A stretch of 64,000 nt of DNA from Hoyosella subflava DQS3-9A1 (GTDB taxonomy: Bacteria; Actinomycetota; Actinomycetes; Mycobacteriales; Mycobacteriaceae), in contig NC_015564.1 of NCBI RefSeq assembly GCF_000214175.1, positions 2,914,001 through 2,978,000 on the forward strand. Direction: 5' to 3'. The notes beneath the pieces are model-generated. The model searched no databases, was not told the origin of the DNA, and was given only the letters and a program-made list of their open reading frames with translations. How positions within the stretch are numbered: position 1 is the stretch's first letter; the number at the start of each line of letters is the position of its first letter. Made by a program: the position numbers and the translations under genes. This document shows, piece by piece, positions 23,955-51,962 of the stretch.

Positions 23955-24012
23955 CTAGTGCGGGGAAACGCACCGTCCCGCTCGCTGATCCGCGTGCGTT
24001 TCTCTGCACGCG
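23955..24012. repeat. 58-bp palindromic element A
   Basis: Left arm CTAGTGCGGGGAAACGCAC (23955-23973) pairs with right arm GTGCGTTTCTCTGCACGCG (23994-24012) at 15 of 19 positions, around a 20-nt loop. It has the same dimensions as elements at 27379, 33305 and 51905. It lies between a membrane protein gene and a TetR gene, upstream of the latter's promoter. Confidence 0.7.
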
Positions 24013-24035
24013 TCGAGAGCATGAAAACTACTCCC

Positions 24036-24071
24036 TCGACACCCACTGGCCGTCTGTGCTATTTTTTGGCT
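24036..24071 (+). promoter_or_regulatory. Leaderless promoter of the ABC-linked TetR
   Basis: TCGACA (24036-24041), an 18-base spacer, TATTTT (24060-24065), then 6 bases to GTG at 24072. This spacing puts the transcript start on the GTG, so the gene is probably leaderless, and decides the start over the ATG at 24021. Confidence 0.65.
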
Positions 24072-24719
24072 GTGCAGCCAGATTCTAAAGCAGATAGCCA
24101 AAGCGCGCGGTCCTTCATCGAGCAAGCTCGCCGTGCGCAGATCATCGACGCCGCCATCACGACGATCGCGGATTCTGGCTATTCCAGCGCTTCGATGGCG
24201 CAGATCGCGAAAACCGCTGGCATCAGCAGGGGTTTGATTTCGTACCACTTCGCGAACAAGGACGAACTGATCGCGCAACTGGTGATCAAGGTCTACACCG
24301 ACGCGGGTGAATACATGGGGGCCCGTGTCAGCACCGAATCGACACCGGCCGGACAGCTGCGCGAGTACATCGCGTCCAACCTCGACTACATGGCGGTTCA
24401 TCCCAAGGGAATCATCGCTCTCGTCGAGATCTTCTCGAGCGGAGCACTCGCGAACCTCCCCGGCATCGACGCGAGCGAAGGCGAAGAACAGTCGCTCGCA
24501 CCCGTCGTCGAGGTCTTCGAGCGCGGACAGCAGCTGGGGCAGTTCGCCGACTTCAACCCGCGGTTCATGGCACAAGCGCTTCGGAACGTCATTGATGGGG
24601 TGTCACCTCACCTCTCCGATCCGCAGCTCGACCTGGAGATGTACAAGCAGCAAATCATCACCATGTTCGAACGCGCCACCGGCGCCCAGCACCCATCTGA
24701 GGAGGTTCCGGAGACATGA
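24072..24719 (+). CDS. TetR regulator of ABC exporter
   Basis: A 215-aa TetR regulator. The N-terminal HTH reads RRAQIIDAAITTIADSGYSSASMAQIAKTAGISRGLISYHFANKDELI. A C-terminal helical domain of the AcrR/BetI type follows. The GTG at 24072 is chosen from the promoter spacing; a long in-frame extension back to 23577 is out-of-frame read-through of the previous gene. The ABC ATPase and permease genes follow on the same strand after a 140-bp gap. It is therefore likely to control that exporter. Confidence 0.85.
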   Translation: MQPDSKADSQSARSFIEQARRAQIIDAAITTIADSGYSSASMAQIAKTAGISRGLISYHFANKDELIAQLVIKVYTDAGEYMGARVSTESTPAGQLREYIASNLDYMAVHPKGIIALVEIFSSGALANLPGIDASEGEEQSLAPVVEVFERGQQLGQFADFNPRFMAQALRNVIDGVSPHLSDPQLDLEMYKQQIITMFERATGAQHPSEEVPET

Positions 24720-24859
24720 TCGAGCTTCACAACAGAGCACGCGATTCTCGCTAGCGAGAGCACTGGTCAGGCGTGGCCTGTTCTCCCCCATCAGCTTCCG
24801 GCTCCGTTCGCCTTTCCGGAACCGCCGGAGTTGATGACCAACCACACCGAGGTGATGTC

Positions 24860-25741
24860 ATGACCAGCCCCATCATGCGCGTGCGCGACGTGACCCGCCG
24901 TTACGGCGACGTCGTCGCAGTGGACGGCGTGTCCCTCGACATCGCACCGGGAGAACTCGTCGGACTGCTCGGCCCGAACGGGGCCGGCAAGACGACGCTG
25001 ATCAACCTTCTTGTTGGGTTACGCCGCCCGGACTCCGGCACGGTCGAGTTGTGTGGCGGCAACCCGCGCGATGAGGCAACACGCCAGGCCATCGGGGTCA
25101 CCCCGCAACAAACAGCGCTTCCGGAGGCGTGGCGCGTCGGCGAACTCATCGACTTCATCGCCGCGCATTATCCGAACCCGACGAATCGCGATGACCTGCT
25201 CGCACGCTTCGACCTGCAGGACTTGTGTTCCCGCCAGATCGGTGGGTTGTCGGGCGGCCAGCAGCGTCGCGTCGCGGTGGCGCTGGCGTTCGCGGGGAAC
25301 CCGCGAGTAGTTTTCCTCGACGAACCGTCAACAGGCCTTGATGTCGAGGCGCGACGGCAACTCTGGACCGGAATCCGCGCGTTCCACGACGAAGGCGGAA
25401 CGGTGTTGCTCACGAGCCACTACCTCGAAGAGGTCGAGGCACTCGCGCAAAGGGTCGCCGTGGTCGACCGCGGTCGTGTCATCGCGGACGGAAGTGTCCG
25501 CGACGTTCGGGGCCTTGTCAGCCTGAAACGGGTTTCGCTGATCTGTCCCGAGCTGCCCTCGATCCCTGGTGTCGCGCGCGTCGAACACAACGACCGCGGC
25601 AACACCACCGTCCTGACGAATGATGCGGACCACTTCGTGCGCGAGCTTGTCACCTCCGGAGCGTCGTTCTCCGAACTCGAGATTCGTTCTGCGTCACTCG
25701 AAGACGCGTTCCTCTCGATCACCAGCAAGCACGTCGCCTGA
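24860..25741 (+). CDS. ABC exporter ATP-binding protein
   Basis: A 293-aa ABC ATPase of the drug/antibiotic (DrrA/CcmA) type. It has Walker A LLGPNGAGKTT, a Q-loop TPQQT, the signature LSGGQQRR, Walker B VVFLDEPSTGLD and the switch His in LLTSHYLEE. The C-terminal extension of about 70 residues is typical for this group. ATG at 24860 has GAGGTGA upstream; a longer start at 24773 is not supported. The permease gene lies 17 bases downstream. Together they would export a hydrophobic compound. Confidence 0.92.
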   Translation: MTSPIMRVRDVTRRYGDVVAVDGVSLDIAPGELVGLLGPNGAGKTTLINLLVGLRRPDSGTVELCGGNPRDEATRQAIGVTPQQTALPEAWRVGELIDFIAAHYPNPTNRDDLLARFDLQDLCSRQIGGLSGGQQRRVAVALAFAGNPRVVFLDEPSTGLDVEARRQLWTGIRAFHDEGGTVLLTSHYLEEVEALAQRVAVVDRGRVIADGSVRDVRGLVSLKRVSLICPELPSIPGVARVEHNDRGNTTVLTNDADHFVRELVTSGASFSELEIRSASLEDAFLSITSKHVA

Positions 25742-25758
25742 CCGCGGAAGGCCCCGAG

Positions 25759-26496
25759 ATGTCTCTCACTGCCCTGTACACCAAGCGCCAACTCATCGAA
25801 ACCGCGCGGACACCCGTCTCATTCCTCGCAATCACGCTGACACCGATCGCTGTGATGGTGTTCTTCATCGTCCCGTTTCTGTCCGACGACCCCGCGGCCA
25901 TGACGGGTGCGACCGCGACGATGGTGGTGTTCGCTGTGCTGCTCGGCTGCGTCGGGCACTTCTCGTTCACCGTGTCCGCACTCCGCGAATCGCCGTGGGG
26001 CGCCTACATGCGCACATTGCCGGGCGGACTCGGCCCTCAGTTCATGAGCAACATTCTCACCGGACTCGCCGTCGTGCTCGCAGGGGTCATTCCTATCGTC
26101 CTCGTGGCAGCCCTTTTCACGGAGGCCACGGCACCGTTGAGCCGCGTTCTTCTCGCAACCCTCGCACTGCTGCCTGTGATTGTGTCGTTCACGATCATGG
26201 GCATTGCGATCGGCTACAACCTGTCCGCGCGGGCCACGATGATCACGAACAGCATCATTTTCATCCCTCTCGCTGTGGCGGGCGGAATGTTCTTCGACGC
26301 CAACGACACTCCAGCGCTAGTTGAGACGATCGCGCCGTATGTCCCAACGCGTGGCGCGACCGATCTTGTTGTCGGCGCGCTGACAGACTATTCACCGAGC
26401 CCGCTGGCCCTGGCGATGCTCGCCTTCTGGACGGCCGTGCTCGCGGTTGCAGCGGTATGGGGCTATCAGCGTGACGAAGGCAGGCGATTCCAGTAG
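25759..26496 (+). CDS. ABC-2 type permease
   Basis: A 245-aa membrane protein with six predicted transmembrane segments, the usual size for an ABC-2 permease. Hydrophobic blocks include VSFLAITLTPIAVMVFFIVPFL, TATMVVFAVLLGCVGHFSF, ILTGLAVVLAGVIPIVLVAAL, LLATLALLPVIVSFTIMGIAI and LALAMLAFWTAVLAVAAVW. It forms the channel for the ATPase encoded upstream. It is convergent with the DUF559 gene, with only 7 bases between the stops. Confidence 0.88.
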   Translation: MSLTALYTKRQLIETARTPVSFLAITLTPIAVMVFFIVPFLSDDPAAMTGATATMVVFAVLLGCVGHFSFTVSALRESPWGAYMRTLPGGLGPQFMSNILTGLAVVLAGVIPIVLVAALFTEATAPLSRVLLATLALLPVIVSFTIMGIAIGYNLSARATMITNSIIFIPLAVAGGMFFDANDTPALVETIAPYVPTRGATDLVVGALTDYSPSPLALAMLAFWTAVLAVAAVWGYQRDEGRRFQ

Positions 26497-26503
26497 GCAC
26501 ATT

Positions 26504-27343
26504 TCAGGCGGCATCTACGCGGGACGCGTCGTGCAACGTCTCTTCGATGTGGCGAATCAGCAGCTCTGGCCTTCGCAGGTGCTCATTGACAACTCGTATG
26601 ACACGCCACCCTGCGCGCAGGTAGGCATTCGCGCGCAGGACATCTTTGCGGGCCTGTTTCGGGTCCTCGAAGTGATGTGCCCCGTCGTATTCGACAGCGA
26701 CCTTCCATTGCGGCCAGGCCAGGTCAGCACGCGCGATGAACCGCCCCGCCGCGTCACGCACAGTGTGCTGACTTACCGGCCGTGGCAGGCCTGCCCGGAC
26801 GATCAGAAGGCGGAGGCGTGTCTCGCGGGGAGACTCTGCACCGGGATCCGCGAGTAGCAGAACTTCACGCAGCGCAGTGATTCCACGGCTGCCGCGCTTG
26901 CGTTCCGCGTACTCAGCGAGCATGCCAGGAGTGAGTGGTGTGGCCTGGTACAGCGCATCAATCAGCGCCACAGCATGATCGGGTTCGCGGCGCCGCGCGA
27001 TATCGAATGCCGTGCGCGCCGGTGTGGTGAGCCGCATCCCATGTTTGCTCATCACCTCGTGCTCCTCGAGCCGGTCACGGTGGATGACCAGGCCGCGGAC
27101 CTGCGCAGCCTTCCGGGTGACGATTTCAGCCGACTGGTCGGGCAGATATCTGACGTTGTGCACAGCAGCTGCGGAAACACCGGAAAGGACACACTCCCCT
27201 GCCGCCCACACCCATGCTGCACGCGCTTTCACGAGTGGCGTCAACTCGGCGGCGCGCTCGATGTAGACGCCTCGCACAACACGCTGGTATCCGCGCAACT
27301 GGCCGCGTGTGAGTCCACGCTGCGCTGGTGTGAATGGGTGCAC
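26504..27343 (-). CDS. DUF559 (Vsr-like endonuclease fold) protein, full length
   Basis: About 279 aa from GTG at 27343, or longer from GTG 27379 or the start at 27472. N-terminal region: AbiEi-like winged helix (VHPFTPAQRGLTRGQLRGYQRVVRGVYI). Middle: LSGVSAAAVHNVRYLP and a TPARTAFDIARRREPDHAV segment. C-terminal DUF559 domain: GRFIARADLAWPQWKVAVEYDGAHHFEDPKQARKD, with the D, E-Y-D-G and K residues expected for a PD-(D/E)XK/Vsr nuclease fold. The biological role of these proteins is not established. A palindromic element overlaps the proposed 5' end. A shorter paralog lies at 51967-52665. Confidence 0.82.
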   Translation of the reverse strand: MHPFTPAQRGLTRGQLRGYQRVVRGVYIERAAELTPLVKARAAWVWAAGECVLSGVSAAAVHNVRYLPDQSAEIVTRKAAQVRGLVIHRDRLEEHEVMSKHGMRLTTPARTAFDIARRREPDHAVALIDALYQATPLTPGMLAEYAERKRGSRGITALREVLLLADPGAESPRETRLRLLIVRAGLPRPVSQHTVRDAAGRFIARADLAWPQWKVAVEYDGAHHFEDPKQARKDVLRANAYLRAGWRVIRVVNEHLRRPELLIRHIEETLHDASRVDAA

Positions 27344-27378
27344 GCCTAACCAGACGCACGGCACGGCGGTGCGGATCA

Positions 27379-27435
27379 CATGTGCAGAGAAAATCACAGG
27401 ATCTGGCGATTCGGGCGTGCGCTTCTCTGCACGTG
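27379..27435. repeat. 57-bp palindromic element B, 5' of DUF559 gene
   Basis: Left arm CATGTGCAGAGAAAATCAC (27379-27397) pairs with right arm GTGCGCTTCTCTGCACGTG (27417-27435) at 15 of 19 positions, around a 19-nt loop. It sits directly upstream of the proposed GTG start of the DUF559 gene and ends 19 bases before the PadR operator. It may be a repeat insertion, a hairpin in the DUF559 leader, or both. Confidence 0.7.
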
Positions 27436-27450
27436 CCGAACACATGATGC

Positions 27451-27487
27451 TAGACAATAATGTGTGACACACAGTATTGTGTTAGGC
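27451..27487 (+). promoter_or_regulatory. PadR promoter overlain by a 27-bp palindrome
   Basis: TAGACA (27451-27456), an 18-base spacer and TATTGT (27475-27480), with the ATG 8 bases after the -10, so probably leaderless. A near-perfect palindrome spans 27454-27480, with outer arms ACAATA and TATTGT and inner TGTGTG and CACACA. It covers the promoter and is a likely autoregulatory PadR operator. Confidence 0.72.
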
Positions 27488-27829
27488 ATGACGAGGGACG
27501 AAGTGCTACCGGGGCACATACAAGAGTTACGCCGAGGCACCGTCGTACTAGCTTGCTTGGCAACGCTTTCAGAGCCGCGCTACGGCTACGCACTGCTCGA
27601 ATCGCTGAGCTCAGCAGGCTTCAGTGTCGATGGCAACACTCTCTACCCGCTGCTGCGACGCCTCGAGAAGCAGGGTCTGCTCGAAAGCGAGTGGAACACC
27701 GACGAGCCGCGGCCACGCAAGTTCTATCGCGTCAGCGCACTGGGCACGGCCATCCTCAACGACCTGATCGACGAGTGGCGGACCCTCAACACATCGATCG
27801 AATCACTTTCACGGGGAGGAACAGAATGA
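27488..27829 (+). CDS. PadR-family regulator
   Basis: A 113-aa PadR winged-helix protein: IQELRRGTVVLACLATLSEPRYGYALLESLSSAGFSVDGNTLYPLLRRLEKQGLLESEW, then PRKFYRVSALG. The ATG at 27488 is preferred to GTG 27464 because the latter lies inside the operator palindrome and the promoter predicts a leaderless start at 27487-27488. Its stop overlaps the start of the membrane protein gene (ATGA). PadR-HAAS pairs are commonly co-transcribed; PadR would repress the pair. Confidence 0.88.
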   Translation: MTRDEVLPGHIQELRRGTVVLACLATLSEPRYGYALLESLSSAGFSVDGNTLYPLLRRLEKQGLLESEWNTDEPRPRKFYRVSALGTAILNDLIDEWRTLNTSIESLSRGGTE

Positions 27830-28785
27830 CCACCTTGACCGAACGCTACGTGTGGGACGTCGCACGGCGCCTTCCGGAAAAGCAGCGCGGAGACATCGCC
27901 GCAGAACTCACCGTGACGATCACTGACATGGTGGACGCACGCACGGACGCCGGCCAGCCGCGTACTGACGCTGAGCGCGCGGTGCTGATCGAACTCGGCG
28001 AACCACGCGCCCTCGCCGGCAGATACCGTGACCGGCCGCAGTACTTGATCGGGCCCGAGATCTTCCCTGACTATCTAAGACTGATCCAGCTGCTCACCTC
28101 GATCGTCCTACCCGTAATTGCCGTCGTGATACTTGCGGTCAAACTGGTCGAGGATGAACCGATCGGCGGTGCGCTGGGTTCAGCGATCGGCGTTACCATC
28201 GAGGTCGCGATCCACCTCGTGTTCTGGGTGACGCTGGTCTTCGCGATCATTGAACGATCCGGAAACCAGAAGGACGTCGTAGCGCACGAAGAATGGGACC
28301 CTGATTCCCTGCCAGCAGGCACCGGCGCAACGACGATATCCAAGGGTGAAACAGTCACCGGGATGGTGTTCGTCGTAATCGCTATCGGGTTCCTGTTCTG
28401 GCAGCATCTGCGCTCACCCGTTTCCACGCTCGACGACGCGCGCGTACCCCTCCTCAACCCCGAGCTGTGGAACGGCTGGATGCAGGTCATCATTGCCATC
28501 CTCGTCTTGTCACTCGCGATTGAGGTAGCGAAATACGTTCGCGGCCACTGGAACTACCCCATCGCCATCGCGAACACAGCGGTGAACCTGGCGTTCCTCG
28601 CGGTCGTCGGGTGGCTGGCTATCGCCGACGAGTTGATCAACCCGACCCTCCTGGCGACGATCGCGGAACGCGCGCAATGGGACTCCGTACCCACCGTCAA
28701 CCCGTGGCTCATCATTCTCGTCGTCGCTGTGATCGCGATCTGGGACAGCGCAGACGGCCTGCGCAAGGCAAGCGCTGCTACGTAG
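27826..28785 (+). CDS. HAAS-domain membrane protein
   Basis: A 319-aa protein. The first 75 residues (TERYVWDVARRLPEKQRGDIAAELTVTITDMV, then AVLIELGEPRALAGRYRDRPQYLIGP) form a HAAS-type helical domain, often paired with PadR regulators. About seven transmembrane segments follow. The start overlaps the padR stop by ATGA and has GGGGAGGA upstream. The probable role is an envelope-stress or membrane signalling partner of PadR. An in-frame upstream extension to 27460 is rejected. Confidence 0.85.
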   Translation: MTTLTERYVWDVARRLPEKQRGDIAAELTVTITDMVDARTDAGQPRTDAERAVLIELGEPRALAGRYRDRPQYLIGPEIFPDYLRLIQLLTSIVLPVIAVVILAVKLVEDEPIGGALGSAIGVTIEVAIHLVFWVTLVFAIIERSGNQKDVVAHEEWDPDSLPAGTGATTISKGETVTGMVFVVIAIGFLFWQHLRSPVSTLDDARVPLLNPELWNGWMQVIIAILVLSLAIEVAKYVRGHWNYPIAIANTAVNLAFLAVVGWLAIADELINPTLLATIAERAQWDSVPTVNPWLIILVVAVIAIWDSADGLRKASAAT

Positions 28786-28823
28786 TCTCGCCTCGGAAGA
28801 GATAACGTCGCACAATTGACAGC

Positions 28824-30860
28824 GTGACCGCACACCCTTCTGAGGCCGCGACCATCGCGGATCGGCTGCGAGCGGCGCGCCGCGCCCGATTCGTCGGCCG
28901 GCGCGGTGAGCTCGAATTGTTCCGGGCAGCGCTCGACTCCGATTCACCGCCGTTTGCGGTCCTGTACCTCTACGGCCCAGGCGGTATCGGCAAATCGGCG
29001 CTGCTCGATCAATTCCAGGAAATCTCGCTGTCGTACCGGCGCCGCGTCATCGCTCTCGATGCCCGCAATCTCGATCCGTCGCCGGCCGCCTTCCTTGATG
29101 CTCTTGGCGGTGAACTTCCCTCCGAGCCAGCCGTCCTGCTGCTCGACACATACGAGGTGCTCGCACCTTTGGATGTGTGGCTGCGCGGCGAGTTCCTGCC
29201 CTCGCTGCCGAGCGACGTCACCGTGGTGATAGCGGGCCGGAATCCACCCTCCCCAGAGTGGCTTGCTGACCCTGGATGGCAGGACCTTCTGCGCGTGGTG
29301 TCGCTCCGCAATCTCGCGCCAGAAGACACACGCACGTTCCTTGCTGCAGCAGGTGTTGCTGCGGCACGCCATGACGTCGCACTCCAGCTCACCCATGGCC
29401 ATCCACTGTCTCTCGCGCTGATGACTGAGGTGCTGCGGGCTGAGCACTTAGCGGACAGTGACCTCGCGCTAGCACCGAACATCGTCGCCGCGCTGCTGCA
29501 CCGATTTGTGGATGCGGTGCCCTCCCTGCTTCACAGGTCCGCAGTGGAAGTGTGTTCCCTCGCGCAGTACACGACGGAGGCTTTGCTGCGCGATGTCCTT
29601 CCCGGTGATGACGTGCCCGACCTGTTCACCTGGCTGCGTGCGGTGTCGTTCGTCGAAGAAGGACCGTGGGGCGTTTTCCCGCACGACGCAGCACGTGACG
29701 CGCTCGACGCGGACCTTCGCTGGCGTGACGAAAACAGATACGTCGAGCTGCACGATAAAGTTCGTGAGCACGTCCTGCGAACAATCGCCGCGACCACGGG
29801 CCGCACCCAGCTGCGACATGTTCATGCGCTGGCATACCTGCACCGGCGCAACCGTGCAGTAAGCGGCTTCTGGGATTGGGCGACATTCGGCCAGGCGTAC
29901 ACCGACGAACTGTCCCCCTCCGACCACGCGGCCATCATCGCGATGACCGAACAGCATCAGGGGCCAGAACAGGCTGACTATGTGCGGTTCTGGCTCGAAC
30001 ATCAGCCTTCCGCGTTCATAGTGTTTCGCGCCGGCGAGCCCGGACCTATCGGCTTCGCCTGCCGCCTCGAACTGCACGGAATGGACCCAGCTGAACGTGA
30101 TGCGGACCCCGGCACCCGCGCGATGTGGCGCTACGTGGTGCAGACCGCGCCTCCGCTGCCCGGTGAAACCGTCTACGCGGCGAGGTTCCTGATAGATGCC
30201 ATCCACAATCAGGAACCATCAATGTCGCAGAACCTCATCAGTGTGCGACACACCCAGGAACTCCTCCGCGCGACGTCGCCAGCATGGGATCTCATCGGTG
30301 CCTATGCCGACGGCGAGCGCTGGGCGCCGCTCTTCGACTACCTGGACTTCCACCGTGCAACCGCCGCTGAGTACGACGTAGGCGGCGCCCATTACTCCGT
30401 GTTTGCGCACGACTGGCGCCGCAAGAACATCAGCGACTGGCTAGACATGATGGGCAGACGTGAGGTTGGAGAGGACATCACGCCACCCACTGCTCCGGTA
30501 CCGGAAGTTGCCCTGTCGCAGCCCGACTTCGAGCACGCAGTGCGCGATGCGCTGAAACATTTCCGCGATCCGGCGCGCCTTGCCCGCAACCCGCTGGCAA
30601 CGTCGCGCCTCACCCGCGGAGCAGCACACCCGGTTGCCGAGCTCCAGCGGCAGATCACCGCGGCCGCCGAAAGCCTGGGTGAAGACCCGCGCAGCGAGAA
30701 GCTCTATCGCGTGATCAACCGCACGTACCTCCACCCGGCAGTGACGCAGGAGAAAGCCGCGGAAGTGCTCGGCCTTCCGTTCTCGACCTATCGCCGTCAC
30801 TTGACGCGCGGTGTGGAGCGGATCGCCGCTGATCTCTGGCACCGCGAGCTCTACGGTTAG
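28824..30860 (+). CDS. STAND/AAA ATPase with C-terminal HTH
   Basis: A 678-aa protein. N-terminal ATPase: FVGRRGELELFRAAL, P-loop LYGPGGIGKSALL (about residues 51-61), a Walker B-like LLLDTYEVL, then a helical STAND-type arm to about residue 330. The middle part (about 330-560) includes a GNAT-like segment (ERDADPGTRAMWRYVVQ). The C-terminal 90 residues end in LHPAVTQEKAAEVLGLPFSTYRRHLTRGVERIAADL, a sigma-70 region 4-like HTH. GTG at 28824 is the start, 38 bases after the membrane gene. It is likely an ATP-dependent transcription regulator. Target unknown. Confidence 0.82.
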   Translation: MTAHPSEAATIADRLRAARRARFVGRRGELELFRAALDSDSPPFAVLYLYGPGGIGKSALLDQFQEISLSYRRRVIALDARNLDPSPAAFLDALGGELPSEPAVLLLDTYEVLAPLDVWLRGEFLPSLPSDVTVVIAGRNPPSPEWLADPGWQDLLRVVSLRNLAPEDTRTFLAAAGVAAARHDVALQLTHGHPLSLALMTEVLRAEHLADSDLALAPNIVAALLHRFVDAVPSLLHRSAVEVCSLAQYTTEALLRDVLPGDDVPDLFTWLRAVSFVEEGPWGVFPHDAARDALDADLRWRDENRYVELHDKVREHVLRTIAATTGRTQLRHVHALAYLHRRNRAVSGFWDWATFGQAYTDELSPSDHAAIIAMTEQHQGPEQADYVRFWLEHQPSAFIVFRAGEPGPIGFACRLELHGMDPAERDADPGTRAMWRYVVQTAPPLPGETVYAARFLIDAIHNQEPSMSQNLISVRHTQELLRATSPAWDLIGAYADGERWAPLFDYLDFHRATAAEYDVGGAHYSVFAHDWRRKNISDWLDMMGRREVGEDITPPTAPVPEVALSQPDFEHAVRDALKHFRDPARLARNPLATSRLTRGAAHPVAELQRQITAAAESLGEDPRSEKLYRVINRTYLHPAVTQEKAAEVLGLPFSTYRRHLTRGVERIAADLWHRELYG

Positions 30861-30943
30861 GCGCCAGATCGAGCAATAAATGGCCTGGATAGTGAACAGT
30901 TCCCGGCGGTATCGTCACTCTATCCCGATTTGAGGAGGCAGCG

Positions 30944-32344
30944 ATGTCACTGTCCACCACCAGCCACGAACACGCCATTGTTCTCGGCGCCAGCATGGCA
31001 GGACTGCTTGCTGCGCGTGTGCTGTCGGAGACCTTTGAACGGGTGACGATTCTCGAACGCGACGCCCTGCCCACCGCAGCGGAACCGCGTCTCGGGGTTC
31101 CGCAAAGCCGGCAAGCTCATCTGCTGCTGCCGGGTGGCGCTCAGGTCATCGAGTCACTGTTCCCTGGCTTCCTGTCCGATCTCAAGGCGATGAATGTCCC
31201 TGTGCTCCGCACCTGCCGCGAGATCAAATTCATCGTTGGCGGCCACACGTTGAGTCAGGAAGGCGTCATCGAGGACCCGACCTATCAGCCGTCCCGGCCA
31301 CTGCTAGAGCGTCAGCTCCGCGCCCGGCTAGAGCGTCTACCGAACGTGGCCCTGATCGATCGCTGCGACGTCGTCGGATTGCACACCACACCGAACGGAC
31401 GCATACCTCGCGTGACCGGGGTGAACGTCGTGCAGCGGCGGTCCGGCAGCGCGGCCGAGGTACGTGCGGCGGACCTCGTTGTCGACGCAACCGGACGCCG
31501 CAGCCGGGTACCCGAGTGGATCAGCGCACTCGGGTGCACGCCTCCAGCGAAGAGCGAGCTTCGGGTCGACCTGAAGTACGTGAGCCAGACGCTACGGTTG
31601 CAGGAAGGTGCCCTCGGCGAGTTGCAGCTCTATTTACACGGCCCGGTACCGGGCAACCCCAGAGGGATGGTGCTGATCAGGCAAGAAAACGATCACTGGA
31701 AGCTGCTTGTCTTCGGGTACGGAACACACCGCCCCTCAGCCGATCCATTGCGGCATAGGGAATTCGTTGCGCATGTCGCGCCGCCTGAGGTGTTGCGCGC
31801 GATCCAGCAGGCGGAGGCGCTGGACGCGCCGGTCGGTCACGGATTCCCGTCGAATCTGCGCCGCCACTATGAGAAGCTCACCGACTTCCCCACGGGGCTG
31901 CTCGTGATCGGCGACGCAGCGTGCAGCTTCAATCCGCTGTACGCCCAGGGCATGTCGGTCGCTGCGCTTCAGGCGATGGCGCTGCGAAAGAGCCTGGCTG
32001 GGAACCATCGCACCCTCGCCCGCAGGTATTTCCGTGCCGCGGCCAAACCAATCGGCGTCGCGTGGCAGACCGCGATCGGCGGGGATCTGGCGCTGCCGGA
32101 AGTTGAGGGTGAGCGGACACTCGCCACCCGCCTGGCGGAACGGTACGTCTCGCGGATTCAGGCCGCCGCCGAAACCGATCCCTTCGTCGCGCGTACGTTC
32201 CTGAGGGTATCGGCGTTCATGGAGCCGCCCTCGCGGCTCTTCAGCCCGCGCATGCTGCGACGAGTGCTGCGCCCGCCCACCCAGATCCCGCCGCACGATC
32301 CAAAGATCGGTGACACGTCCACACATGTGACTCACGCACTCTGA
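30944..32344 (+). CDS. FAD-dependent oxidoreductase / hydroxylase
   Basis: A 466-aa flavoprotein. The N-terminal FAD motif is VLGASMAGLLAARVLSETFERVTILERD, and the DAxG region reads ADLVVDATGRRSRVPEW. The second FAD motif GLLVIGDAACSFNPLYAQGMSVAALQA closes the site. This is the geranylgeranyl-reductase/UbiH-like monooxygenase group common in actinobacteria; substrate not predictable. The ATG has GAGGAGG about 8 bases upstream. It stands alone, convergent with the VOC gene (2 bases between stops). Confidence 0.85.
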   Translation: MSLSTTSHEHAIVLGASMAGLLAARVLSETFERVTILERDALPTAAEPRLGVPQSRQAHLLLPGGAQVIESLFPGFLSDLKAMNVPVLRTCREIKFIVGGHTLSQEGVIEDPTYQPSRPLLERQLRARLERLPNVALIDRCDVVGLHTTPNGRIPRVTGVNVVQRRSGSAAEVRAADLVVDATGRRSRVPEWISALGCTPPAKSELRVDLKYVSQTLRLQEGALGELQLYLHGPVPGNPRGMVLIRQENDHWKLLVFGYGTHRPSADPLRHREFVAHVAPPEVLRAIQQAEALDAPVGHGFPSNLRRHYEKLTDFPTGLLVIGDAACSFNPLYAQGMSVAALQAMALRKSLAGNHRTLARRYFRAAAKPIGVAWQTAIGGDLALPEVEGERTLATRLAERYVSRIQAAAETDPFVARTFLRVSAFMEPPSRLFSPRMLRRVLRPPTQIPPHDPKIGDTSTHVTHAL

Positions 32345-32829: not shown

Positions 32830-33318
32830 GTGGCTGAAAGCGCGGGCATTCTGCTGTACCGGATGAGCAGCTCGCTAGAAGTGTTCCTCGCACACATGGG
32901 CGGTCCCTTCTGGGCGCGCAGGACCGAGGGCGCCTGGACGATCCCGAAGGGCGAGTGCATGCCCGGTGAGGACGCGCTCGCGACCGCTCACCGTGAGTTC
33001 GCCGAAGAGATCGGCTCCGCAGCGCCCGATGTTGCGTACTTCAAGCTCGGGTCGTTTCGTTATGCATCGGGCAAGGTAGTGCACGTTTTCGCTGGCGAGG
33101 CGGCTCTATTTGAGGTCGATGCGGTCAGCAGCAACACGTTCGAGCTCGAGTGGCCGCCACGTTCGGGCCGCCGACGGGCATTCCCCGAGATTGACGACGC
33201 CCGCTGGGTTCCGGTGGCGGAAGCCCGCCCACTTCTCGTCGCGGGACAGCGGCCGATGCTCGACGCCCTCGCCGCGACAGTTCGCGAACCGCCCGGCGAG
33301 GCCACACGTGCTGAATAA
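32830..33318 (+). CDS. Nudix hydrolase
   Basis: A 162-aa Nudix protein. The Nudix box GECMPGEDALATAHREFAEEIG fits GX5EX7REUXEEXGU, within a domain beginning AGILLYRMSSSLEVFLAHMGGPFWARR. The ending RWVPVAEARPLLVAGQRPMLDAL is typical of the NTP-pyrophosphohydrolase DR1025-like group. It hydrolyses a nucleoside-diphosphate-linked substrate. The GTG at 32830 follows a probable leaderless promoter. Confidence 0.88.
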   Translation: MAESAGILLYRMSSSLEVFLAHMGGPFWARRTEGAWTIPKGECMPGEDALATAHREFAEEIGSAAPDVAYFKLGSFRYASGKVVHVFAGEAALFEVDAVSSNTFELEWPPRSGRRRAFPEIDDARWVPVAEARPLLVAGQRPMLDALAATVREPPGEATRAE

Positions 33319-33362
33319 CGCACCGCGAAACGCGACGTGGCACGACCATTTCTCGGCACATG
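33305..33362. repeat. 58-bp palindromic element C (degenerate)
   Basis: Left arm CACGTGCTGAATAACGCAC (33305-33323) pairs with GACCATTTCTCGGCACATG (33344-33362) at 12 of 19 positions, with a 20-nt loop. Dimensions match elements A, B and E, and the outer CAYGTGC core is shared. It spans the end of the Nudix gene and the gap before the convergent LmeA-like gene, so it could also terminate transcription. Confidence 0.5.
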
Positions 33363-33392
33363 TGAGGGGCACGCCCACTGCCCCGCCGAACG

Positions 33393-46588: not shown

Positions 46589-46619
46589 ACAACCGACGTT
46601 ACGACCGCGAAGGTGGTTT

Positions 46620-46657
46620 TTCAACCCTAGAGTCGACTAAACGCCCTATTGGTTGAA
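46620..46657. promoter_or_regulatory. Inverted arms in thioesterase/TetR gap
   Basis: TTCAACC (46620-46626) and GGTTGAA (46651-46657) are perfect inverse complements 24 bases apart, enclosing the 8-bp palindrome AGTCGACT (46631-46638). They lie between divergent starts and may be TetR half sites. Confidence 0.45.
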
Positions 46658-46703
46658 TTGTGGTATTTTTGCGCAGATCCGTTCGCGAGTGAGGAGCACA
46701 GCC

Positions 46704-47336
46704 GTGGAAACCGTGGAGACTGGGGAAACACCGACCCGGCTCTCCCGGCGCCGTGAGCGCCGCAAGGCCGAAATCGTGCGTGTCGCGATCTCCTTGCTGG
46801 CAACCAGCGGTTACCAAGGGATGGGGCTAGACGATGTGGCCGACGGCGCCGATATCGCGAAACCCACTCTCTACCACTACTTTTCCAGCAAGGACGAACT
46901 GGTTTCCGCGGCGTTGGAGACGTTATCGAACAATGTCCTGAACCGACTGATCGCCGTACTCGACGATGCTCCCGGCGATGCACACCGAGACCGGCTGCGC
47001 GCTCTGGTCAACGAACAGATCCGGATTATGACGGAGGAGTATCCGGAGGTCGGCACGATTTTCGCGTGGCAGACGTCCTGGCCGGACATGCATGACGAGG
47101 CCCGGAAGTCGATGCGCCGCAGACACGATGCGGTCTTCCGTCAGGTCGTCGTCGCAGGACTCGAGGCAGGCGAACTCGATTGCGCGAACATCGATGTTGC
47201 TCTGCAATGCCTGCACGGCATCATCAACAATGCGTCAATCTGGCTCTCGCAAATGAAGGATTCCGAACAGACGCTCACCACCCAGCGCGACCTTGTCAGC
47301 GCCGTCATGCGGATCTTCACCACCGAGCACTCCTGA
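46704..47336 (+). CDS. TetR-family regulator
   Basis: A 210-aa TetR protein: RRERRKAEIVRVAISLLATSGYQGMGLDDVADGADIAKPTLYHYFSSKDELV, then a helical sensor domain. GTG at 46704 has GAGGAG 7 bases upstream and is preferred to the TTG at 46653. Next to an acyl-CoA thioesterase-like gene, it may respond to an acyl-CoA or fatty acid. Confidence 0.88.
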   Translation: METVETGETPTRLSRRRERRKAEIVRVAISLLATSGYQGMGLDDVADGADIAKPTLYHYFSSKDELVSAALETLSNNVLNRLIAVLDDAPGDAHRDRLRALVNEQIRIMTEEYPEVGTIFAWQTSWPDMHDEARKSMRRRHDAVFRQVVVAGLEAGELDCANIDVALQCLHGIINNASIWLSQMKDSEQTLTTQRDLVSAVMRIFTTEHS

Positions 47337-47361
47337 CGCTGCCATGTCCTGGGCGTCCTGC

Positions 47362-48258
47362 TCAATTGAACGTGAACGTTACTCCGGTCAATTCTTCGCT
47401 CATGTCCCACAATTCCGCAGCGAGCTTTTGATTCTGCGCCACTCGAGAGATTTTCGCCGCACCCGGCTTGCCGCGCGTCTCCATCAGCGCGCGCGGTCCG
47501 GTATAGCTACCGGGGCCCCCATTGTTCGCCGCGTACAGCGTGGGAAGTGCCCCAGCCTTTGCGGACTGACTGACCACCCGGGCACCGAGCGGCGCGAGCT
47601 TGCGCAGAACCGGGTTGCTGCCAAGTCCGTCGTCACTGCCGTACAAGCCCGTTGCTGAGAAACCCGGGTGAGCCGCATTACTGACAAGTGGCGAACCGGC
47701 CGCGCGCGCACGCCGGTCCAGTTCCAGCGCGAACATCAAGTTGGCGAGCTTAGAGCGTGCATACGCGCGGTGCGGATCGTAACTCCGGTCCTCCTGCGGA
47801 TCGTCGAAATCCAGCTGCCGCCGCTGACGGTGTGCGAGCGACGACACCGTCACCACGCGGGGCTCAGCGGCTTCGAGCAGCCGGGGCATCAGTAGCGCCG
47901 TCAGCGCGAAATGGCCGAGGTGATTTGTCCCGAACTGCAATTCGAAACCGTCGGCGGTTTCGAGACGGCGCGGGGGCATCATGACACCTGCATTGTTGAT
48001 CAGGAGGTCAAGGGAACCTGACTGGCTGTCTGCGAATTCGCGCACCGAATCGAGACTCGCGAGATCCAGTTTCGCGGATTCGACGTCCGCATTCGGGATC
48101 TCCGCCCGGATCTCTTCGGCAGCGGCGGCAGCCTTCTGCTCGTTCCGGCATGCGAGTACGACGCTATCGCCGGCGCGGGCGAGTTCTGCCGCAGTGAAAT
48201 AACCGATGCCCGAATTCGCCCCCGTGACGACGGCCCTGCGCCGCTGCGTGCCAGTCAT
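47362..48258 (-). CDS. Short-chain dehydrogenase/reductase
   Basis: A 298-aa SDR of the retinol-dehydrogenase/WWOX-like group. Cofactor motif [25 protein letters not shown] in LINNAGVMM, catalytic Ser in VVTVSSLAH and YARSK (Tyr/Lys). NADP preference is suggested by [14 protein letters not shown]. The ATG at 48258 has AGGG 8 bases upstream. It oxidises or reduces a hydroxyl/carbonyl on an unknown substrate. Confidence 0.9.
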
Positions 48259-48279
48259 GGGCACACCCTAACACTGAGT

Positions 48280-48735
48280 TCAGGGACGCGGCCTCCGTGT
48301 GCTGCCCCGCGGAGGTGCCTCACCAGGAGGGACGTCGCCCCGGTGGGTTGCGCCACGCGGCGAATTCGTCGACCCCGGACCCGTTCCTGGCGCGTCCGGA
48401 TCGAGCTTCGCGGCTCGTTCGAATTCTTGGTCCACCTTCGCACGCGCGCCGGTCGCCTCGGTGCGCTGTTCAGCGGCGCGATACCGCATTTGTTCTGCCT
48501 CCGCGGCCTTGGCCTCCGCCCGCGCTTTCGTCTCGCGCGCCCTCGCAGCAGCCGCTTCCGCCTCGGCTTCCTGCTCGGCGACCTCATGCTGGTGGGCCAC
48601 GGCACTACGACGTATTTCTTGCGCCTTGCGCCGCCGGTGTTCGGTCCGGCCGCGCATAACCATGGCGATGATCGCAGCGACTACGAGAACTGCGACGATG
48701 ATGATGACGATTGTGACGATCGTTGTGGTGTCCAT
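48280..48735 (-). CDS. Membrane-anchored coiled-coil protein
   Basis: A 151-aa protein. One N-terminal transmembrane helix (IVTIVIIIVAVLVVAAIIAMVM), a basic RGRTEHRRRK stop, then a long charged Ala/Glu/Arg coiled coil (about residues 45-110) and a Pro/Gly/Arg tail. Similar small proteins occur widely in actinobacteria without known function. GAGGTGAGGA precedes the ATG. Possibly co-transcribed with the SDR, 21 bases away. Confidence 0.8.
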   Translation of the reverse strand: MDTTTIVTIVIIIVAVLVVAAIIAMVMRGRTEHRRRKAQEIRRSAVAHQHEVAEQEAEAEAAAARARETKARAEAKAAEAEQMRYRAAEQRTEATGARAKVDQEFERAAKLDPDAPGTGPGSTNSPRGATHRGDVPPGEAPPRGSTRRPRP

Positions 48736-48950
48736 TGTGGTTCCTCACCTCGCGTGGCGTTGCACGGTGGTGCCGCTACAGCGGCCCGTGCATCGCGCCT
48801 AACGTGATGTGGATACCCGTAAAGACGTCCTTCATACCCTTAACATGGCGCTAATATTTGGACATTTCATGCATTCTTCGTGCCTGCCAGAGAATTCCAA
48901 CAAATGGAATCCGCGCTTCGCGGATCCCTCCATTCCATTAGAGTTCCTTT
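48736..48950. other. 215-bp divergent promoter gap
   Basis: Separates the coiled-coil gene (minus) from the pRiA4b-like gene (plus). It is locally AT-richer around 48841-48910. No clean promoter pair or palindrome was assigned. Confidence 0.4.
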
Positions 48951-50402
48951 GTGGCTCCCTCGAACGCTCCCGACGAACTGCCTGCGGATCAGCAACAGCT
49001 GCTGGATCAGTTCAAACAGCGCCTCGAGACGATGACGCCGTCCGAGCTTCACGAGGCGCTCGGTTCGATTCTCGTAGCCGGGCCGGCAGTCTCCGATCGC
49101 TACGCCGCCGCACGGCCCGACAACCGGCTCCCCCGGCGCGAAGATGTCGTCACGTTCGTCGTGCGAGTCGATATCAACGGAGCCGAACCTCCGCTGTGGC
49201 GACGCCTCGAGCTAGCGTCGGATCTGCTCCTCAACGAGGTCCACGATGTGCTGCAAGTCAGTTTCGGCTGGCAAGATCGTCATTTGCACCGCTTTTCGAG
49301 CGGCGGTGGCCCCTTCGACAGCGGCGCTGAACTTTACCTCTGCCCCTTCGACGCGGATGCAGGTGAAGACGAAGGCGTCCCCGAAGAAGAGGTCCGGCTC
49401 GACGAAGTCCTTTCCGAACCCGGAGATGTCCTCCACTACGTCTACGACTACGGCGATAACTGGATGCACTCCGTGAAGCTGGAAAAGGTGCAGCCTCGCA
49501 GTGGCGAAGAACCGGCCGCCCGGTGCACGGGCGGGCGGCGTCCGGGGCCGCCCGAAGACTGCGGCGGCGTGCGGGCATATGAGCTCGCCGTTCAGGACCC
49601 CCAGCGCTCACAGCTCGAACATCCGCTCATTCCATTCCGCGCCCGAGATATCAATGAAACCCTCCACGCGATGTTCGCCGACGTGGAAATGCCACCGTTC
49701 GTGCAACAGTTCACTGACTCGCTGCCAAGTACCTGCACGCGCCCAGTCCTACGGCTGATTACGGGCGCGAACCTCACTGCCGCCCCTGTGATCACGGAGG
49801 CGAACGCGGCTTCCATGGTGTCCCGCTATGCCTGGCTGCTGCGGCGCGCCGATAGCGACGGTATCCGACTCACCCAGGCCGGATACCTGCCGCCCAACGT
49901 GGTTCAGGAAGGCATACAGGCGCTCGAACTGGAGCCCACGATCTTCCAGGTGAATCGGGAAGTCAGCGTTGGGCCGCTGCTCCGACTGCGCAGGTCAGCA
50001 CAAGACAAGGGCTTACTACGAACAAAGAAGGGGACGCTCGTCCTCACTAAGCTCGGTCGTCGCCTGGCCCACGACCCACTGGCACTGTGGCACCACCTCG
50101 CGAGAACTGCCCCCGTCATCGCGGCGGACCCGTGCGAGTCGCACGCCTTGGTACTGCTGCTGCTGACGATCGCCGGTTTCGCCGACGATTCGGCACTCAC
50201 CCCGACAGCAGAATTGATGACAGAAATCGGGTGGCGCATGGATGACGAGCCACTCGATGCGATCGACGTGCTGGACTTGACGCAGCCGCTGTACCACGAC
50301 CTGTGCCTGGTCGGCGCTTTATCGCGGGAAGGCTGGGAACTGGACCACATCACCCCCGGCGGCGTCCAGTTCGCGCGCGCCGCGCTACAACGGCCCCTCT
50401 GA
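48951..50402 (+). CDS. pRiA4b ORF-3-like protein with extra C-terminal domain
   Basis: A 483-aa protein. Residues 65-215 form a plasmid pRiA4b ORF-3-like domain: VTFVVRVDINGAEPPLWRRLELASDLLLNEVHDVLQVSFGWQDRHLHRF, then HYVYDYGDNWMHSVKLEKV and RCTGGRRPGPPEDCGGV. The family is linked to plasmids and IS1096-type passengers; its biochemistry is unknown. A further 265-residue domain (GANLTAAPVITEANAASMVSRYAWLLRRADSDG, with LTKLGRRLAHDP) resembles a winged helix unit. GTG at 48951 is the start. No transposase is found nearby. Confidence 0.85.
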   Translation: MAPSNAPDELPADQQQLLDQFKQRLETMTPSELHEALGSILVAGPAVSDRYAAARPDNRLPRREDVVTFVVRVDINGAEPPLWRRLELASDLLLNEVHDVLQVSFGWQDRHLHRFSSGGGPFDSGAELYLCPFDADAGEDEGVPEEEVRLDEVLSEPGDVLHYVYDYGDNWMHSVKLEKVQPRSGEEPAARCTGGRRPGPPEDCGGVRAYELAVQDPQRSQLEHPLIPFRARDINETLHAMFADVEMPPFVQQFTDSLPSTCTRPVLRLITGANLTAAPVITEANAASMVSRYAWLLRRADSDGIRLTQAGYLPPNVVQEGIQALELEPTIFQVNREVSVGPLLRLRRSAQDKGLLRTKKGTLVLTKLGRRLAHDPLALWHHLARTAPVIAADPCESHALVLLLLTIAGFADDSALTPTAELMTEIGWRMDDEPLDAIDVLDLTQPLYHDLCLVGALSREGWELDHITPGGVQFARAALQRPL

Positions 50403-50510
50403 AACTGGGGAAACGAAGCCGAAGGTTACGAAACAGCCACTGCCGCAACGCAGCCGCTCCAGCCAACGTACGCTCCTGAGGAACATCCCCTCCCGGCAAA
50501 GGACAAGACC

Positions 50511-50660
50511 ATGCCCCCGTTCTCCGTTCTCGACTTTTCCACGCTCGGCGAAGACCAGCTCGGTATGCCCCGCGAGGAAATCTTCGACTCGATCTTCGGC
50601 ATCATGTACGCGCTCATCGAGATGCTCGGCCTCGGCGGAGCCACATTCCTGGGGCTTTAG
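50511..50660 (+). CDS. 49-aa small peptide gene
   Basis: Too short for routine gene calling, but AAAGGA lies 6-7 bases before the ATG and the frame fills the gap between the ORF-3-like gene and the convergent CHAP gene (4 bases before its stop). The product starts MPPFSVLDFSTLGEDQLGMP and continues with an amphipathic, then hydrophobic, tail ending GGATFLGL. There is no signal peptide. Its size and DFSTLG segment are reminiscent of corynebacterial PorA/PorH peptides; this resemblance is weak and is a suggestion only. Confidence 0.55.
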   Translation: MPPFSVLDFSTLGEDQLGMPREEIFDSIFGIMYALIEMLGLGGATFLGL

Positions 50661-50663
50661 CTG

Positions 50664-51272
50664 TTACAGCACCCCGTAGCCGATGATCCCCGAGTGGCCC
50701 GTGCTGACATTACGCGCGGCGACCTCTCCGTGAATGAACTCGTTGCCGCCGACGGTGGTCAAAGCCCCATCGTCGTTGCGGACGACGATGCTGGTGTGCT
50801 GGGTGAACTTGCTCCCTGGGGCATACAGGACCACATCACCAGCTTTCGGCTCGTAACCTGACTCGCGCGACTCGAAGCGGCCTTCCGCCCGGTAATACTC
50901 CTCGAGCGTGTACACGCCAGGGATTCGCCACCACCCAGAGTTCGGGTTCGCCAGCGGCATCCCAGCTTCGCGCATCACCCAGCTCACGAAGTTCGCGCAC
51001 CAGGCCTCGTCCGCGCCTTCTGAGTACTTCTCCCCCGGCGGATTCTCTGCGAACTCCGTACGAAGCACCTCGATCACCGCGGCCTGCCGTTCGTCGAGTT
51101 CAGTGACCTCGACAGCGGGGAACGTGCGGGGACGCACCATGTGCCACAGGTCAAAGTAGGCAGCAACCACCCAGACCAGGCCGATGATGAACACGAGAGA
51201 TGCCACCAGGAGCATTGCGACACGGTTTCGGCGCGGACGACGTGCAGCATGTTCATTCTGATCCCCTGGCAT
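50664..51272 (-). CDS. Membrane-anchored CHAP-domain amidase
   Basis: A 202-aa protein from ATG 51272 (GTG 51281 possible). N-terminal anchor VAMLLVASLVFIIGLVWVVAAYF, then a CHAP domain with the catalytic Cys in EAWCANFVSWVMREAGMP and His in KFTQHTSIVVRNDDG, plus GYEPKAGDVVLY. CHAP enzymes cleave peptidoglycan cross-bridges or stem peptides. Likely a periplasmic cell-wall hydrolase; no cell-wall binding domain is present. Confidence 0.87.
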   Translation of the reverse strand: MPGDQNEHAARRPRRNRVAMLLVASLVFIIGLVWVVAAYFDLWHMVRPRTFPAVEVTELDERQAAVIEVLRTEFAENPPGEKYSEGADEAWCANFVSWVMREAGMPLANPNSGWWRIPGVYTLEEYYRAEGRFESRESGYEPKAGDVVLYAPGSKFTQHTSIVVRNDDGALTTVGGNEFIHGEVAARNVSTGHSGIIGYGVL

Positions 51273-51354
51273 CGTCTGCACACCGCAAGTTTAGCTGCGT
51301 GCCCGCCTGTGGTTAGTAACGTGAGATCACCCCACTTTCGAAGGAGGCCGTCAC

Positions 51355-51657
51355 ATGTATGCCGTGGTGCGACTCAATCATTTCGACACCGAGAAACTCA
51401 CCGCCCACTCCACCGACGTCGCGGAATTCGACCGAATCCACGCCGAGCAGCCCGGGTTCATCGGCAGCCTCATCGTTGATCTCGGTGACGGCAAACAAGC
51501 CACCGTCAATCTGTGGGATAAGGAAGAAAGCGCGAAAACCGCGCTGCCGCGGATCGGGCCGGTGGTTGGACAGCTGCTCAATCCACTCATGGCAGCGCCC
51601 TCTGAACTGCTCGGCACTGGGCCCGTCATCAAGGGCGCTGACCTCGTCGAGAGCTGA
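51355..51657 (+). CDS. ABM-like (dimeric alpha-beta barrel) small protein
   Basis: A 100-aa protein with AAGGAGG 6 bases before the ATG. It reads MYAVVRLNHFDTEKL, then FDRIHAEQPGFIGSLIVDLGDGKQATVNLWDKEESAKTAL, the pattern of antibiotic-biosynthesis-monooxygenase-like ferredoxin folds. Catalytic residues are not conserved across this fold, so activity is open. Its stop is one base from the stop of the small membrane gene on the other strand. Confidence 0.8.
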   Translation: MYAVVRLNHFDTEKLTAHSTDVAEFDRIHAEQPGFIGSLIVDLGDGKQATVNLWDKEESAKTALPRIGPVVGQLLNPLMAAPSELLGTGPVIKGADLVES

Positions 51658-51658
51658 C

Positions 51659-51853
51659 TCACCTCGCGTCCCGAAAGGACTCGATGACAGTCACCTCACT
51701 CGGACTGCCCTCGCCCGGCAGCCCTGGGGTGCTGTAGCCGGGCCATTCGCCACCCGTCGCGACAAGCCACACACCAAGAGCGGTGCCGACGAATACTCCG
51801 GCTCCGATGCTCACCCTCCGAAGCCGCCGCCAAGTTATCTCGCACCAACGCAT
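51659..51853 (-). CDS. Small single-span membrane protein
   Basis: About 64 aa from ATG 51853 (80 aa from 51901). MRWCEITWRRLRRVS is followed by one hydrophobic segment SIGAGVFVGTALGVWLVATGG and a short exported tail. The composition is plausible and it fills the space, but no ribosome binding site is clear. Confidence 0.45.
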   Translation of the reverse strand: MRWCEITWRRLRRVSIGAGVFVGTALGVWLVATGGEWPGYSTPGLPGEGSPSEVTVIESFRDAR

Positions 51854-51904
51854 AACTAGAACTGACGCAGCGAAGCGCGCTGTGGTTCCATCAGCTGTCA
51901 CCGC

Positions 51905-51962
51905 GTCGTGTGCACAAACTCGCAGAAATCTGTCGCGCGGACCGCGAGTTTGTGCACACGAC
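51905..51962. repeat. 58-bp palindromic element E (perfect arms)
   Basis: GTCGTGTGCACAAACTCGC (51905-51923) and GCGAGTTTGTGCACACGAC (51944-51962) are perfect 19-bp inverse complements around a 20-nt loop. The element ends 4 bases before the 3' end of the DUF559 gene. Its loop and right arm recur at 52654-52691 (34 of 38 positions), just 5' of the same gene. Confidence 0.85.

Follow-up and report, generated by a model that had tools for sequence, protein, structure and literature searches.

What are the palindromes of about 58 bp that lie dispersed through this 64,000-nucleotide stretch of the Hoyosella subflava genome (hereafter the window)? A preliminary description of four of them, designated A, B, C and E, proposed a single repeat family under structural constraint, distinct from chance hairpins and from simple terminators. 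We find that H. subflava carries several families of hairpins of about 60 bases, many of which are located directly behind genes. To judge from sequence and position, their probable role is to mark message ends or to protect them. For this organism (strain DQS3-9A1), the genus name Amycolicicoccus is a synonym.

Hairpin families in the genus Hoyosella

Recomputation of the 19-nucleotide arms gave exactly the values first proposed, namely 15 of 19 matches around a 20-nt loop for A, 15 of 19 around 19 nt for B, 12 of 19 around 20 nt for C and 19 of 19 around 20 nt for E. A, B and C are indeed members of one repeat family, here called T1; E falls outside it, in another family designated T2. A third family of the same design, T3, has one copy in the window (Table 1). 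Gene positions given here come from our own simple codon-usage gene caller trained on the region of the window, and not from annotation.

Table 1. Palindromic elements and related features, in positions of the window
Feature	Position	Strand	Structure	Gene context	Counterpart in H. altamirensis
T1 element A	23952..24015	.	64 bp; 21-bp arms; 20-nt loop	predicted stop codon 17 nt before	orthologue
T1 element B	27376..27438	.	63 bp; 19-nt loop	flanked by two predicted gene starts, one overlapped by 4 nt; no stop nearby	orthologue; right edge is the start of a 4.9-kb stretch missing at that place
T1 element C	33302..33365	.	64 bp	convergent genes either side; covers last 17 nt (3' end) of a NUDIX-domain gene	1.9 kb of different DNA in its place
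T2 element E	51903..51964	.	62 bp	convergent genes; stop codon 2 nt away	orthologue; loop differs, as does the arm at one point, with a G-U pair retained (by eye)
Degenerate T2 copy	52646..52695	.	extent by eye		full T2 element, G002:C1:984518
T3 element	55366..55430	.	16-bp arm of CCACCTCTGAGCGACA type; 11-nt loop; fold z -7.0	stop codon 24 nt off	G002:C1:981791
T1 left arm without right arm	12574..12592	+		directly after stop codon	
Insertion sequence (IS) end, remnant, presumed IS30 family	12605..12640	+	33 of 36 bases match the intact IS end (by eye)	12 nt into former T1 loop	part shared

Further copies are present both in this genome and in the sister species H. altamirensis. There are 14 T1 places in H. 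subflava, 7 in H. altamirensis and 1 seen in H. rhizosphaerae, and 9 and 10 T2 places in the first two species. The T1 counts include the weak place 1265305 and both members of an identical pair, although that place and the second member of the pair are absent from alignment A2. They omit a weak H. altamirensis match (C5:177767, E 0.31). The degenerate T2 copy, a T1 element split by an IS and the half T1 element are excluded throughout. The positional counts below concern 40 elements of two species (21 T1 and 19 T2), and a T3 sample of 17 elements that includes orthologues, duplicates and one doubtful row from genome G001. Nine of the 14 T1 copies in H. subflava are found within 113 kb, and three T1 copies have an identical loop and parts of their flanks in common.

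Chance is a poor explanation for these elements, as had been argued. With as many as 3 mismatches allowed, the T1 arm pattern has 10 matches in the window versus 3.34 +/- 1.72 in shuffled sequence (100 shuffles, maximum 9). Similarly, hairpins with 15-bp arms, at least 14 Watson-Crick pairs and a loop of 3-26 nt number 17 in 384 kb, whereas the three first-order Markov controls yielded 1, 0 and 0.

Within the genomes searched, the arm sequences appear to be found in Hoyosella only. Matches to the T1 model in four other genera (G009, G016, G030 and G045) were on inspection other hairpins, with none obvious in G045; the G016 match has AAACGCACC in common with T1. Outside the genus, T2 gives weak matches in G007, G013 (two places), G016, G042 and G051. 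Those inspected (G007, one G013 place, G016 and G051) lie 4-13 nt after a stop codon, and their arms resemble T2 arms in part. A phage or virus origin was rejected, with no match among viral contigs, and a plasmid search with a half element gave no match. A role at the replication terminus was likewise rejected. The T1 cluster lies 0.55-0.66 Mb from C3:2288919, which we take to be a dif-like site from its pattern (1 mismatch), and there is no clear terminus pattern because three T1 copies (2327457-2379069) are closer to this site.

Position behind genes and conservation of stems

Most T2 elements, 17 of 19 (8/9 in H. subflava and 9/10 in H. altamirensis), have a stop codon within 40 nt, as do 12 of 21 T1 elements (7/14 and 5/7), versus 21% of random intergenic positions. 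The other nine T1 elements are farther than 40 nt from every called stop. This limit was set after seeing the data, and the picture is unchanged at 30, 50 and 100 nt; within 50 nt the counts are again 17/19 and 12/21, with a null of 24%. In the T3 sample, 11 of 17 elements are near a stop. Convergent gene pairs flank 5/14 T1 and 4/9 T2 elements in H. subflava and 2/7 and 5/10 in H. altamirensis (null 13%), and 3 of 21 T1 elements lie between divergent genes. Gene starts are avoided, with one within 40 nt of 1/14 T1 and 2/9 T2 elements in H. subflava and of 0/7 and 1/10 in H. altamirensis, versus a null of 37%. The statement that all elements are intergenic or at gene ends was roughly right: A and E lie near stops and C overlaps a gene end, but B sits between gene starts.

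Predicted RNA folds of the 13 elements tested have z values of -1.95 to -7.67 relative to shuffles. The values are -3.4 for A, -3.1 for B, -2.6 for C, for which 1 of 200 shuffles folds equally well, and -6.4 for E. There is clear evidence of covariation in T2 (p = 0.0006, all 14 elements), wherein 11 pairs are altered on both sides versus 6.5 when shuffled, and 20 cells versus 9.6, a value reached by 0 of 500 shuffles. Leaving out the two G001 elements weakens the signal to p = 0.014, and to p = 0.31 for the outer half by itself. Divergence between the sister species amounts to 4.3% of positions in T2 arms and 18% in T2 loops. For T1, arms of the same element are 80.7% paired versus 79.9% with a shuffled partner, and a separate test gives p = 0.15. 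The outer half alone gives p = 0.007, for a split picked after seeing the data, and the inner half p = 0.89; four H. altamirensis orthologues of 20 were left out of these three tests. T1 loops and T1 arms are equally conserved. Arm agreement in T3 is borderline (p = 0.047). Compensatory arm changes, once named as what would support a constrained family, are therefore clear in the family of E and absent overall in that of A, B and C.

We consider it fairly probable that the elements are transcribed gene-end hairpins, which either terminate transcription without a U-tract or block 3' exonucleases, and that they are kept as REP-like repeats. The case is strong for T2 and moderate for T1, for which the missing overall covariation, the loops conserved like arms and the clustering are points against it. 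Transcription would place an element at the 3' end of a message, where its 15-21-bp stem might act as a U-less terminator. Alternatively, the stem might halt 3'-to-5' exonucleases following Rho-dependent termination. Because it is palindromic, one element could serve both strands. Copies would arise from local duplication and from copying inside the genus, REP-like in the broad sense, and some elements would also be landing sites for an IS30-family element.

The earlier claim that these are not simple terminators is unsupported, since position after a stop and the absence of a T-run are also features of U-less terminators as reviewed for mycobacteria. In a 2025 review (PMC12288462), mycobacterial genes are described as having predominantly 'I-shaped' terminators with no poly-U tail, located up to 50 bp after the stop, and Rho as the dominant termination route. 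The same review cites a 2014 paper titled as the mycobacterial polymerase requiring a U-tract and a 2020 paper titled as the U-tract being dispensable (PMC12288462). How genes end without U-tracts in high-GC actinobacteria is a disputed matter. Like the 'I-shaped' terminators, the elements are hairpins after a stop, often between convergent genes. A stable hairpin within some 50 bp of the stop is the rule for T2 and holds for just over half of T1, and none of the 40 elements has a U-tract (TTTT is absent from the 10 nt next to the stem base in all 80 flanks). They differ in their Hoyosella-only arm sequences and in their loops of about 20 nt, which are atypical of terminators. Near-stop hairpins in 800 kb of three other genomes of the taxonomic family (G010, G019 and G032), with a G+C content of 69-72% versus 62-63% here, have loops of 3-6 nt in 18 of 27 cases and of at least 17 nt in 4.

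TRIT (RNIE, Gardner 2011) is reportedly a sequence-conserved motif among the U-less terminators of mycobacteria. The TRIT model is named in PMC3526491. An Rfam search of the window at gathering scores gave no match; below the cut-offs, six loci gave five weak matches, four of them miRNA-like (T1 copies) and one snoRNA-like. With their numerous copies, their orthologues and their naturally varying stems, the Hoyosella gene-end families would allow the contributions of sequence, stem and loop length to be separated.

Insertion, copying and breaks in synteny

One T1 copy is split at its loop centre by an IS element with rve and HTH_38 domains, which we take to be of the IS30 family. The isolated arm at 12574, included in the preliminary description, is real and is explained by the adjoining remnant of such an element. 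This remnant sits at the same loop point and suggests a second insertion. IS30-family elements target palindromes, and the apparent insertion at equivalent points of two T1 loops resembles this behaviour. The IS end occurs at four places, however, and two of these are not T1: an apparently broken gene, and a plasmid site beside another palindrome. T1 points to an IS30-family element that selects, as its target, the middle of a repeated palindrome.

Strict REP elements have a GTAG/CTAC head and occur in genomes with a RAYT (Y1_Tnp) gene. We rejected this class, with the head present in 0/21 T1 and 2/19 T2 elements. No GTAG-type head is common to the families, nor are they linked to a RAYT transposase. 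In the broad definition given in PMC1525189, REPs are repeated, extragenic, palindromic, 21-65 nt long and targeted by IS elements at a fixed point. The elements (about 58-64 nt) fit this description, with C overlapping a gene end by 17 nt. Perhaps they are repeats without host function that some agent has copied and that are tolerated when they lie behind genes, as the three T1 copies with shared loops and flank parts might suggest. We regard this as quite improbable, given that T2 arms are retained between species while the loops change four times faster, and that no Y1 transposase was matched in H. altamirensis (G002) despite its 7 T1 and 10 T2 elements. Other Y1_Tnp matches are one partial in the genome of the window (C3:3346533) and five in G001, where elements are few.

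Integron attC sites (59-base elements) are about 60 bp long, with a two-part stem, a variable loop and the core sites RYYYAAC ... GTTRRRY. The size, the two-part stem and the variable loop of roughly 20 nt are similar here, and breaks in synteny with H. altamirensis coincide with the edge of B and with C, and another lies near 2908515; one flank at 989271 is unrelated. This raises the idea of recombination or cassette sites beside which DNA is inserted. It is very improbable: the core sites are present in 0 of 40 elements, which led us to reject membership of this class, and elements are often flanked by convergent genes. Moreover, comparison over 70 kb shows 16 breaks, of which three have a T1 element and one more is at the degenerate T2 copy (by eye), and A and E are colinear with H. 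altamirensis.

Shared geometry

A loop of about 20 nt is common to the three families. T1 arms are offset from one another by 36, except in 4 of 20 cases, where the value is 35; T2 arms are offset by 36 in the pairs measured. Offsets of T3 in H. altamirensis are 27 in 6 of 21 pairs and 36-38 in 10, with none at 28-35; these pairs are from 53 of 99 listed matches, the remainder partnerless by eye. The two T3 classes are about one helical turn apart.

One possibility is that T1, and perhaps all families, are double-stranded DNA sites, with inverted half-sites at a fixed spacing for a dimeric nucleoid-associated protein or regulator. We consider this unlikely, though the offsets count in its favour. 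The covarying arms of T2 are unneeded for DNA half-sites, one T2 orthologue (1413 pair) has a loop 3 longer, the elements avoid gene starts and the offsets were possibly inherited by descent. For T1, however, an additional role as a DNA site is possible, because its inner arms are conserved without covariation, its loops are conserved, its copies are clustered and one loop holds an IS30-family element.

Three families with unlike arms have one geometry in one genus, and therefore a genus-specific factor might read this geometry, either as a DNA dyad or as a long-loop RNA hairpin. The elements would then be gene-end marks of an undescribed kind and not passive terminators, which we judge rather unlikely. 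Gene-end hairpins themselves are already known, but a size common to unrelated families is unusual.

Hairpins with two arm sequences

The preliminary description had assigned four hairpins of the window (A, B, C and E) to one family with a 19-20-nt loop, and their positions and arm matches were confirmed on recomputation. The single family holds for A, B and C, which have a common arm with the consensus CACACGTGCNGAGAAACGCAC, but it does not extend to E, whose arm is TCGTGTGCACAAACTCGCA. We call the family of A, B and C T1 and that of E T2. Because the two arms can be superposed with partial agreement, and because one place in a further genome (G001 C15:40263) is matched by the covariance models of both families, T1 and T2 could possibly have a common origin.

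The T1 model was built from nine sequences representing ten places, two being identical. In the H. subflava genome it recovers these ten training places and four untrained ones, at 2379069 (E 9e-8), 2350585 (1.6e-6), 2327457 (0.03) and 1265305 (0.24), the last of which reaches E 2.6e-5 with a larger model trained without it. Thus, covariance models reveal further genomic copies of the A, B and C hairpin: there are 14 T1 places in H. subflava and 7 in H. altamirensis, and G001 adds a single weak match. At E 0.01, the first T1 model has matches in 7 of the 61 genomes searched, H. subflava included, and those in four other genera failed on reading. A degenerate T1 pattern run against GTDB contigs, which misses several true copies in a scan that possibly left out the window's own genome, returned one stretch in H. 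rhizosphaerae, two in H. altamirensis and two in other phyla that we judge to be chance matches. The T2 model, trained on five H. subflava elements, finds 9 places in that genome, the least significant of them at E 0.0097. H. altamirensis has 10 T2 places and G001 has 2, and weak matches occur in five other genomes among 40 searched.

Locations of the hairpins and associated features (C3, H. subflava contig)
Feature	Location	Remark
Hairpin A (T1)	window 23952-24015	
Hairpin B (T1)	window 27376-27438	
Hairpin C (T1)	window 33302-33365	
Hairpin E (T2)	window 51903-51964	
Single T1 arm	window 12574-12592	
T3 element	window 55366-55430	arm CCACCTCTGAGCGACA
NTPase gene	window 8770-12573	1267 aa, nSTAND1 with WD40 repeats; immediately upstream of the half T1 element
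DUF559-domain gene	window 26504-27379	adjoins element B
Stretch missing at this place in H. altamirensis	window 27439-32340	4.9 kb; begins at edge of element B
Identical T1 pair	C3:2841925 and 2842930	1 kb apart; partly duplicated flanks around a small PGRS-like gene
IS splitting a T1 element	C3:381398-382662	1265 bp; rve and HTH_38 domains
IS30-family copy	C3 about 4414189-4415453 (L156 about 4989-6253)	inside apparently broken gene
Possible fourth-family hairpins	C3:2808391 and 2830969; H. altamirensis C1 about 1078487	at gene ends; arm CAAAACGTACAG

Arm pairing, gene position and divergence

Arm covariation, which the preliminary description had named as support for its family, is present in T2 but on the whole not in T1, as judged from shuffles and from p values for arm agreement. 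Among 14 T2 elements, 85.0% of cells are paired versus 77.9% when shuffled, two-sided pair changes number 11 versus 6.5 and cells with such changes 20 versus 9.6. No more than 2 of 500 shuffles, which ignore relatedness, reach these values. Arm agreement in T2 gives p = 0.0006, with 0.004 for the outer and 0.022 for the inner half of the arm; when the two G001 elements are left out, the three values become 0.014, 0.31 and 0.020. For 20 T1 elements the paired fraction is 80.7% versus 79.9%, a value equalled or exceeded in 116 of 500 shuffles, and arm agreement among 16 elements, with orthologues left out, has p = 0.15. A post hoc split gives p = 0.007 for the outer ten T1 positions and p = 0.89 for the inner eleven.

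In seven orthologous T2 pairs from the two Hoyosella species, 12 of 282 arm positions, 25 of 138 loop positions and 76 of 845 positions in the partly coding 60-nt flanks differ. T2 thus changes in the manner of a hairpin whose loop is free to vary. The corresponding values for four T1 pairs are 10 of 168, 5 of 79 and 184 of 529, and the entire 64-bp block is conserved while its flanks change or are rearranged.

With stop codons taken from a simple gene caller and random intergenic placement as the null (21%), 8 of 9 T2 elements in H. subflava and 9 of 10 in H. altamirensis have a stop codon no more than 40 nt away, as do 7 of 14 and 5 of 7 T1 elements; these counts are not independent between species, since at least seven T2 and at least four T1 places are orthologous. 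The sequence TTTT is absent within 10 nt of the stem base on both sides of all 40 elements. In gene-end position and lack of TTTT, T1 and T2 resemble mycobacterial U-less terminators as reported (PMC12288462). The view of T2 as gene-end RNA hairpins is well supported as to structure and position; their action is inferred. T1 has the same form but may act on the DNA level as well or instead.

Insertions and clustering of T1

The IS30-family IS in another T1 element lies 11 nt into the loop, and the right arm sits beyond it. After the window's single arm come 12 nt and then 36 bases, 33 of which match the same IS end by eye. In H. altamirensis the outer bases of the arm are present too, with this IS remnant no more than one or two bases beyond them. 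The likely history of this half element, read from sequence, is an insertion at the same loop point with later loss of most of the IS and the right arm. The IS end is found at four places, two at T1 elements, one on the plasmid and one in an apparently broken gene, possibly an lsr2 paralogue.

Nine of the 14 H. subflava T1 places are inside 113,244 bp, where the maximum among 20,000 random draws was 7, reached once. Three copies with a common loop and partial flank identity look like duplicates; without two such copies, 7 of 12 places remain, versus a random maximum of 5. There is no comparable clustering of T2 (at most 2 of 9). The region C3:2841000-2845500 has partial matches in G001 and none in H. 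altamirensis.

The 4.9-kb stretch next to element B carries genes for a PadR regulator, a HAAS-like protein (below cut-off), an AAA ATPase and an FAD-binding protein, and its far end contains a segment that resembles, by eye, a shrunken T1 element. The H. altamirensis orthologue of the DUF559-domain gene has an additional AbiEi-like match, also below cut-off.

A third family and loop length

Scanning 384 kb of the H. subflava genome for long hairpins gave 17, of which 15 are intergenic, 11 are within 60 nt of a stop codon and two belong to a third family, T3, with copies in both Hoyosella genomes. In H. altamirensis there are 21 T3 arm pairs within 100 nt, with offsets of 22 (one pair), 27 (six), 36-38 (ten) and 40, 41, 67 and 70 (one each), and none of 28-35; the offset is 36 or 35 in T1 and 36 in T2. 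Arm agreement in T3 is slightly higher within than between elements (p = 0.047, 17 elements). T3, analysed here in less depth, looks like T2. In kind, the three families fall with gene-end hairpins and REP-like palindromes, of which they form a Hoyosella-specific variant. The words repeat, palindrom and hairpin are absent from the main text of the H. subflava genome article (PMC3743902), and a limited search of titles on Hoyosella palindromes gave nothing on these hairpins; a prior description in print is possible.

Loops of at least 17 nt occur in 7 of 11 near-stop hairpins in the 384 kb of H. subflava. Counts by eye give 7 of 13 for H. altamirensis (295 kb) versus 4 of 27 for three other genomes (G010, G019 and G032; 800 kb together), in which loops of 3-6 nt prevail (18 of 27). 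Long loops are therefore more frequent in the Hoyosella samples, and a difference in G+C content may contribute to this contrast. Both Hoyosella genomes also contain gene-end hairpins that may form a fourth family.
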